Shown: positions 24,001-27,000 of the stretch, one piece after another
Position numbering within the stretch: the stretch's first letter is position 1
Layout of the letters: each line of letters begins with the position of its first letter
Source: Owenia fusiformis
Lineage: Eukaryota > Annelida > Polychaeta > Sabellida > Oweniidae
NCBI GenBank assembly: GCA_903813345.2
Contig: CAIIXF020000011.1
Location: 13,001,754 to 13,065,753 of the forward strand
DNA length: 64,000 nucleotides
Reading direction: 5' to 3'
Made by a program: the position numbers and the translations under genes
The notes under the pieces: model-generated
Database searches by the model: none
Told to the model about the DNA's origin: nothing
The model's input: only the letters and a program-made list of their open reading frames with translations

Positions 24001-27000
24001 TTATTTACGTCCACCCAATCTTGATTTACATCCTCTCCATTGAAGGACGCCATTAATGAAATCACTGGGGCAAGCTTGTTTCTTAAATCTCAGGTGGGTT
24101 CAGTGCGCCCACTTGCTTTAATGCTGGGGAAATCACTGATAGTATGATGAATATGAGTATTGTAAAATTTAATCTAATTTGCCACACTTTTAAAAGAATA
24201 GAAGACAATTAAAGGCCCCTTTATTCGGTTGAATAATCAAATGAAGGATTCACATGTTATTGAGCCAAATACATTGATAACAGATATTGCGAACGGGGAA
24301 TGTTCCAGGTATTATTGTGTCCCTTTAATGCAGGTCCTGGGGAGGGAGAAGGAACAGCTGCAGACTGAGCATAGTAAAGTGGTATATATATAATATAATA
24401 TGTGTAATTGTGTCCCTTTAATGCAGGTCCTGGGGAGGGAGAAGGAACAGCTGCAGAGTGAGCATAGTAAAGTGGTATATAATATAATATGTGTAATTGT
24501 GTAATTGTGTCCCTTTAATGCAGGTCCTGGGGAGGGAGAAGGAACAGCTGCAGAGTGAGCATAGTAAAGTGGTATATATATGATATACATGTAATTGTGT
24601 CCCTTTAATGCAGGTCCTTGGGAGGGAGAAGGAACAGCTGCAGAGTGAGCATAGTAAAGCAGTTCTAGCTAAATCAAAGCTGGAAAGTCTGTGTAGGGAG
24701 TTGCAGAGGCACAATAAGCTGGTCAAGGTATAAACTATAAATAACTTCAGCACTTTCATCTTGTTTATAACTAAATACTTTATATATTATATTAACAGAT
24801 ACTATGTACTTTGTCTTGTATCCATATATCTATTCGAGACCTATTTAGCTGAGTCAAATCAAATGCATCATATTTTTAAATGTACACATATTAACTATGT
24901 GTTGTACCCTACTTGGATGTATTATATATATTAATATACAGAAATTAATCTTCAAAATTAAACTTCACCACTTAAGCATTTTTACATTGTGATGAGAATG
25001 GCCTTAATTATTTGTTATAACTGAATGGAATATTTTAGGAGGAAAGTTTGGCTCGGGCCAGAGAGGAAGAAGAAAAGAGGAAAGAAGTCACGGCTAAATT
25101 CCAGGTAAGCTTTGAAAAATTGAAAGTTACAAGTTCTCCTTATTAAACTGTAGAGAGTTGTACTAACAATGATTAAAGGAGGCAGACTGCTGTATATTGC
25201 AATGAATTTTTGATTACAACTATTTAAAAAATGTTGAAATATTCTCTCCAGATAACATACAAGATAATAGTAATTCCTGAACTCTGACTTCATTAAAGGC
25301 TATTAAGGAAAAATGCTTCACTTTGAAAATTAGGTCTTCTAGAATGAAACACATGTTCAACAACAAGGTGTTATTAGATAGAGTCGACTGTAAGGAATCT
25401 TAGGCCTAAGTCACATTTGATCTATGGTAACCATACAGTGGCTGTAACTTCCCAAAATTGGGAAAATAATAGGGATAAGCAATACGATGTAGATTTCTGT
25501 ATTGAATTAGTGAAGCTTCAGCCGCCATAGGCTTCAGTAACTCTTAATATGTTTGTTTTAGACCACAATTACTGACATCCAATCTCAGATGAATGATCAT
25601 CACTCCAAGAACTCCAAACTAAGAGAGGAAAATATTGACCTTGCATCTAAGTTAAAGAACCTGATTGAGCAATATGATCTAAGAGAACAGGTAAAATCTC
25701 TGTTTTGTTTTGTGGAAAAGATTACAAACCATATCATTCAATATGCTATATTATGAACCTCAAATAATGACAATTATTGACATATTTTCAATCTCTTGAC
25801 TGATATGTAGCATTTTATTTATTTTTTTAACTAAAAATTAAAAAGTATGATAATGTCACCTTTCCCATCTGCACATTTCCAGGCAAACTGCAAAATAGAT
25901 TTGAAATTTTCAGGGATGTCTCTTGGTATGACAATCTAGGACTCATTTAAGAAATATAGACCTAAGAGCAGGGCTACTATTTTCAAATACACCACGCAGG
26001 GCATTTCCACCTCTACTTCTGGTTGAGCTTTTGCACTGAACGAAACACTTAATACAGAGCCAGGGCATTGATCTCGAATATGCCCCGGGTGAAACATTGA
26101 CTTTGTTCACAGTTTATAGAAGGCATGAATACAGTCATGTTCGAATACAGTATATTTAAAGTGTTCACCATGTCCCTGCCCTGTTCTTGTTGATAAGTAA
26201 TTCTTCTTGTTTCAGCATATTGAAAAAGTGATTAAGCACAAAGACCTTGAATCACAACTCGTTGAGGCAAAGCTGCAGCAATCAACACTACATCTGACTG
26301 AGGAAAAACAGAAAAATACTGTGGAGAAAGAAATTGTGAGTTTAGGTTCATATTTTTGGTATTCTAGTTTCAGTAGGATTGTCACAGTTTTTGTAAGTTT
26401 GGAAACATGATTGCCCAATTTAACATATTGGCATTCAGTCCATTGCCCAATACGGAACTAGTTTTTCCTATTGCTATTGAAACTGTTTCTATGTCTAAGT
26501 TTGGAAACATGATTGCCCAGTTTAACGTATTGGCATTCAGTCCATTGCCCAATAGACAAACTATTTTTCCAAGTTCATTGCCAAAATGGAAAGGACGGGT
26601 GTCATTAAGGGCCCTTTTTAGCCCCCAAAGATATCTGATAATAATGCATATCATATTGAAGAAAAATCATTTGTGCTTTATAAAAATACAATTTCAGCGA
26701 ATTTTGACCTTTGATGTTCACACAACAGTCATTTAAAGATCATATACCATTTTTGGTGTTTTTACAAAAAATTCTTTATTTATTGTTGTCTAAGTAAATA
26801 GTATATAAATATTAACCAATTTTAATATATTAAAATGTAATATATGAAATACTGAAGAAAAGATACGATTAAAATTATTTTCATGGAAAAGCACATAGGG
26901 CAATATTGACAAAATGCAAATGCTATTTTGGTAGGTTCTGGGCTAGCAATGGGTACATTTCAACTGTGACTGTAATGTATTACTATTGACTTTTGTCAAC

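Follow-up and report, generated by a model that had tools for sequence, protein, structure and literature searches.

The stretch of DNA analysed here (the window, 64,000 nucleotides) lies on contig C11 of the Owenia fusiformis assembly, in which all genome searches were performed (G000; 498 Mb in 525 contigs). Contigs C1 to C12 are chromosome-like, with lengths of 31.9–62.2 Mb where given, C6 being judged by match positions up to 40.7 Mb. A Pfam profile search with PF09728 (taxilin) returned five exon matches in this genome, all at a single place, the window. Exon 5 of this taxilin gene is preceded by three partial copies of its own beginning, each with the adjoining intron end, arranged head to tail. 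The features, all on the forward strand, are as follows.

21938..22075 (+), start approximate: taxilin exon 4, PF09728 match to profile positions 4–49, ending in phase 0 and followed by GTAAGT
24314..24659 (+): entire tandem array, unit 90–97 nt
24314..24333 (+): intron tail and AG acceptor of copy 1, running on from intron 4 upstream
24334..24379 (+): copy 1, first 46 nt of exon 5, two mismatches to the real exon
24382..24387 (+): weak possible donor GTATAT of copy 1, read-through stop at 24391
24427..24472 (+): copy 2, first 46 nt of exon 5, identical acceptor with AG ending at 24426
24475 (+): GTATAT of copy 2, read-through stop at 24502
24524..24569 (+): copy 3, first 46 nt of exon 5, identical acceptor with AG ending at 24523
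24572 (+): GTATAT of copy 3, 42 nt to exon 5, read-through stop at 24581
24614..24727 (+): complete taxilin exon 5, 114 nt, phase 0-0, PF09728 profile positions 48–87, donor GTATAA

An earlier note on this DNA had described three copies of the intron tail, the AG acceptor and the first 46 nt of exon 5, and this description was confirmed. Tandem Repeats Finder (TRF) reported the array with a period of 97, 3.7 copies, 92% matches and a score of 589, head-to-tail repetition above chance. Successive copies start 93, 97 and 90 nt apart, and their acceptor AGs end at 24333, 24426, 24523 and 24613. Over the 46 nt shared with exon 5, copy 1 has two mismatches, and copies 2 and 3 have one each. The 23-mer around the acceptor (20 intronic and 3 exonic nt) is identical in all four copies, so that the upstream acceptors are indeed as good as the real one. 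The array locus gave one match when searched against the genome. A scan of the array for sigma-70 promoters and terminators gave nothing useful, as expected in an animal gene.

Two further repeats were observed in the window. At positions 2–2214 a 145-bp unit, which we take to resemble part of a tRNA-Gly gene, is repeated 15 times in tandem; ARAGORN called no tRNA in the window. A large inverted repeat occupies about 21110–21505, in the intron before exon 4, with arms of about 110–120 nt by eye, and is perhaps a foldback transposon.

In each partial copy GTATAT begins at nucleotide 49 of the exon, delimiting a possible piece of 48 nt. Because the end of exon 4 and the start of exon 5 are both in phase 0, a copy ending in GTG/GTATAT is in frame, and the previous arithmetic of a 48-nt in-frame exon was right. 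Inclusion of 48 nt, or of 45 nt, keeps the frame from phase 0 to phase 0. The 45-nt exon was rejected, its donor AAA/GTGGTA scoring -1.9 bits, and another GT, ATA/GTAAAG, scored -0.8 bits. Scores were obtained with a matrix built from 19 donors of this genome, 8 from TCP1 genes and 11 read by hand from taxilin and others; nine TCP1 introns were called, and the worst-scoring donor call (C10:13377526) was left out. With this matrix GTG/GTATAT scored 5.7 bits, the exon 5 donor GTATAA 7.4 and the 19 matrix donors 5.3–12.4. Only 1 of these 19 stands at or below 5.7 bits, a count made on the very donors that built the matrix; genuine donors score too well because so small a matrix is tested on its own members. 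Among the 3624 GTs of the window, 4.3% reach 5.7 bits or more. The copy donor is thus present and within the range of genuine donors, which counts against the reading that we favour below, but it is weak.

Beyond the earlier note, we determined where read-through of each copy ends and how far the copies lie from one another. Read-through reaches an in-frame stop 19–25 codons into each copy, at 24391, 24502 and 24581. From the donor of copies 1, 2 and 3 to the next acceptor there are 45, 49 and 42 nt, respectively, and the would-be introns leading directly to exon 5, computed from the coordinates, measure 232 nt (copy 1), 139 nt (copy 2) and 42 nt (copy 3). For comparison, the shortest of 79 intron estimates (27 chaperonin and 52 dynein) is 117 nt; these estimates are gaps between profile matches, from which extremely short introns could escape. 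Since the 42–49 nt spacers fall far below this value, only copy 1 or copy 2, if any, could act as an exon adding 16 residues. One such additional exon is conceivable, and its splicing-in at a low level is possible; the joint inclusion of two adjacent copies would need introns much shorter than any estimated here.

These measurements bear on the proposal of the earlier note, that the array is an alternative cassette caught early, with copy 1 or 2 sometimes spliced as a 48-nt exon and 16 residues added to the coiled coil. The in-frame length, the phase 0 on both sides and the intact acceptor agree with it, as do introns of 232 or 139 nt that fall inside the observed range. Set against these points are the weakness of the donor, the position of copy 3 just 42 nt from exon 5 and the spacing of 45 and 49 nt between neighbours, which leaves no removable intron between adjacent copies although copy 1 or 2 direct to exon 5 is long enough. 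Moreover, each copy is a fragment with just 46 of the 114 nt of the exon, and the copies show no sign of coding divergence (one synonymous and one nonsynonymous difference). As the same layout also arises elsewhere without a cassette (see below), we regard this proposal as possible but unlikely. The short spacers also weigh on the idea that an intron is being born, with the first acceptor used constitutively and the spacers now acting as introns: at 42–49 nt they compare with 117 nt for the shortest of the 79 estimates. A potato gene offers a precedent in which the same kind of stretch was duplicated and a donor recruited, as evidenced by 106 junction reads, but its donor is GTAAG whereas that of taxilin is weak (PMC4974935). 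We consider intron birth highly improbable.

Ten further Pfam families were searched in the genome and led to similar arrays. Several of these searches scored part of the candidates (for instance 14 of 186, 47 of 149 and 124 of 876), and the list of arrays is accordingly a lower bound. A scripted check for duplicates covered all 92 myosin and 73 SNF2 matches, 83 of 144 kinesin matches (array copies and lower-ranked matches omitted), 63 of 73 UCH matches (array copies omitted) and 7 of 144 kinase matches; the remaining Pfam tables were checked by eye. The chaperonin loci were first taken as a yardstick for introns, and TRF exposed two arrays there. Families are those of Pfam, and the subfamily labels (ISWI-like, CCT8-like, CCT2-like and GSK3-like) are presumptive assignments of ours. 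Arrays of an acceptor and the 5' part of an exon were found in at least five other genes, in every case with the complete exon last and with upstream copies made of the intron tail, the acceptor and 41–130 nt of exon. These arrays, and a dynein exon with one partial copy, are listed below.

L024 (G000:C2:23264000-23272000), 2346–5189: kinesin array, 18 copies (17 partial, upstream), unit 158–159 bp
L026 (G000:C2:4913800-4918200), 1574–2229: ISWI-like SNF2 array, 5 copies (4 upstream), unit 137 bp
L027 (G000:C9:8170400-8175400), 1551–3229: USP array, 11 copies (10 upstream), unit exactly 150 bp
L015, 1646–2416: CCT8-like array, 9 copies (8 extra), unit 83/89 bp, by TRF
L020, 1581–1980: CCT2-like array, 4 copies (3 extra), unit 96 bp, by TRF
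L053 (G000:C10:13564700-13570000), 1303–1522: dynein exon with a single diverged (87%) partial copy and acceptor just upstream

Read-through of a copy runs into a stop in the taxilin, kinesin and CCT8-like arrays; in the ISWI-like array three of the four upstream copies meet a stop and the fourth a frameshift. In the USP and CCT2-like arrays, whose unit lengths are divisible by three, no copy interrupts the reading frame on the way into the real exon. If an early acceptor were used in the USP gene, the beginning of the UCH domain would be added again, in as many as ten repeats of 50 residues each. For the top-scoring donor of copy 1 the values are 5.7 bits in taxilin, -1.6 in kinesin, 4.5 in the ISWI-like gene (out of frame), 0.5 in USP, 1.9 in the CCT8-like gene (in frame) and 0.9 in the CCT2-like gene. 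Taxilin thus has the top score among the six multi-copy acceptor arrays, a point in favour of the cassette; by rough judgement, however, one donor of 5.7 bits among six arrays is unsurprising for a score attained by about 4% of GTs. As the copy-1 donors of the other five arrays do not exceed 4.5 bits, the layout forms without a cassette. The recurrence of this layout across the genome is more interesting than the taxilin repeat itself. It also speaks against an assembly artefact in taxilin, as does the variation of the copies in substitutions and spacer length. The single match of the locus in the genome leaves no second haplotype for comparison, but an artefact is extremely unlikely.

The same searches flagged two pairs of SNF2 matches as possible duplications, since their profile ranges overlap: one at C1:6486401-6487260(+), 692 bp apart, and one at G000:C2:18535750-18536546(-), 674 bp apart (18536424, 18535750). 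A direct repeat of at least 40 nt was sought in the C1 pair (6486401, 6487093) and none was found.

Differences among the exon parts of the copies were then classified in the six arrays. They comprise 20 synonymous and 14 nonsynonymous changes, where 9.8 synonymous changes are expected (P 0.0003). The synonymous to nonsynonymous counts are 8:2 for kinesin, 4:0 for ISWI-like, 1:1 for taxilin, 0:0 for CCT8-like, 5:8 for USP and 2:3 for CCT2-like, and the excess stems from the kinesin and ISWI-like arrays. Arrays in which read-through meets a stop total 13:3, against 7:11 for those with an open frame (Fisher P 0.017, for a grouping made post hoc on sites that are not independent). One reading of the excess is that unequal exchange often shifts copies into the last, working slot, where selection would purge harmful changes. 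The taxilin array itself appears young or homogenised and carries no sign of constraint. This weakens the idea that the upstream acceptors serve as decoys that tune taxilin output down, their use giving a stop-bearing exon of 204–394 nt and hence nonsense-mediated decay. The read-through stop in all three copies and the equality of the upstream acceptors with the real one would suit such a role; the recurrence of the layout in the genome suggests tolerance rather than design, and we judge a regulatory decoy quite unlikely.

The frequency of repeats across exon edges was estimated from 38 of 60 chaperonin and 41 of 80 dynein matches, each flanked on either side by 300 nt or more of retrieved sequence. 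Six of these 79 exon matches carry a repeat across an exon edge, three at the acceptor and three at the donor (95% interval 2.8–15.8%). A seventh flagged match, C11:135225-135701, is the CCT2-like array and was kept outside the numerator and inside the 79. The donor-spanning repeats are as follows.

L010, 1288–1600; L016, 745–1220; L009, 917–1174: donor-spanning repeats in chaperonin genes, one clean pair and two diverged

In these three the 3' end of the exon and its donor are copied into the following intron; in two of them the overlap with the exon match is just 26 and 28 nt, at 83–84% identity. A bias towards duplication of acceptors only, hinted at by the kinesin, ISWI-like and USP arrays, was dropped in view of the three acceptor and three donor cases of this denser survey. 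Coverage by tandem arrays (period 40–300, 1.8 copies or more) amounts to 15.3% in the window, with 18 arrays, and to 5.6% in the chaperonin loci, with 10. Eight random 10-kb stretches reach 9.7% with 5 arrays; these fall in four of the stretches, and a single stretch supplies most of the bases. Since tandem DNA is this abundant in the genome, arrays that include a splice site are to be expected as a by-product. Arrays with a period of 145 bp fill much of one random stretch on C2 (L031), which does not imply sequence identity with the 145-bp unit of the window.

Together, these results make it probable that the taxilin array is a minisatellite that spans a splice acceptor, that its extra copies are intronic and that splicing goes mostly to the last acceptor. 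It looks like a common repeat accident tolerated by splicing rather than a new alternative exon. From the arrangement of the copies we infer the following order. A tandem duplication would have linked a position 46 nt into exon 5 to one lying a few dozen nt within intron 4. Changes in the length of the AT-rich joint would have followed, and the unit would have multiplied to three extra copies, left within intron 4. Most transcripts would join exon 4 to the acceptor at 24614, and use of the acceptors of copies 1–3 would give a minor error product ending at the in-frame stop.

Acceptor strength gives the last site no advantage, because the 23-mer is common to all four. In exon definition, an established principle, the splicing machinery matches an acceptor to a donor that lies a short way downstream. 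The last acceptor would be chosen because exon definition pairs it with such a donor, the last copy alone making up a short exon, 114 nt long, that ends at a usable one, and it is probably exon definition that makes such arrays tolerable. A human library of splice sites counts against this account of taxilin: with pairs of consensus sites 2–59 nt apart the first donor is mostly used and acceptors show no preference of order (PMC6783452).

A broader proposal, which we hold to be doubtful, is that the genome keeps producing arrays at exon edges, that exon definition lets splicing reliably pick the last of up to 18 near-identical acceptors and that unequal exchange keeps the decoys competent to code, as the synonymous excess in the kinesin and ISWI-like arrays would suggest. 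If it were true, the decoys would make up a lasting supply of proto-exons and proto-introns, some of them in usually essential genes, and taxilin, with the top donor of the six arrays, would be the nearest to becoming an exon. Arrays in which near-identical acceptors precede a single complete exon amount to natural experiments on how an acceptor is chosen: as acceptor strength is nearly constant, it is mainly order and donor distance that vary across them. With 4–18 copies in one genome, they could show whether the first, the last or any acceptor is used, and how frequently duplications at exon edges give rise to new exons or introns. For taxilin alone the likely answer is an ordinary one.

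In our search of the literature on intron gain, exon and acceptor duplication, taxilin splicing and splice-site repeats we met no many-copy acceptor arrays across the genes of one genome, although such reports may exist. The closest single case is the RdRp gene of potato, in which a tandem duplication spanning an acceptor became a new intron (PMC4974935). There, and likewise in taxilin, the unit consists of the 3' side of an intron and the 5' side of an exon, head to tail, so that the acceptor is copied along and a donor must be recruited. The potato gene has two copies and a confirmed new intron, whereas taxilin has four copies with the weak GTATAT; the taxilin spacers fall below every intron length estimated in this genome. 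A partial tandem duplication of human BRCA1 exon 10 also repeats an intron tail and the first part of an exon, with read-through reaching a stop, and an mRNA retaining the duplicated stretch was detected with primers specific for the altered allele (PMC11839443). It differs by a very large unit (395 + 1617 nt) and a single duplication, found in a patient and classed as pathogenic (PMC11839443). Given the order result of the human library and this altered mRNA, some leaky splicing into the taxilin copies may well occur and would mostly yield stop-bearing products (PMC6783452, PMC11839443).

Intron gain by tandem duplication within coding exons of Drosophila is likewise a source of new splice sites; there the duplicated piece is exonic and provides an AG/GY proto-splice site, whereas the taxilin unit carries a genuine acceptor (PMC2891723). 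Tandem mutually exclusive exons resemble taxilin in that each exon copy has its own acceptor, but they appear complete, with their own donors and a diverged protein sequence, while the taxilin copies hold 46 of 114 nt and are almost undiverged (PMC9013439). Two clusters in the same genome appear to contain complete exons, unlike the taxilin array: a myosin cluster (L025, G000:C9:37984800-37994700) with at least 12 diverged copies of one exon, probably mutually exclusive, and a GSK3-like kinase (L028, G000:C10:2255900-2258300) whose two complete, alternative-looking exons lie 178 bp from each other, both have an acceptor and a donor, and differ in protein sequence. Minisatellites, or variable-number tandem repeats, consist of head-to-tail units with small differences. 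The taxilin units of 90–97 nt fit this class, and what is unusual is their content, a splice acceptor together with coding sequence.
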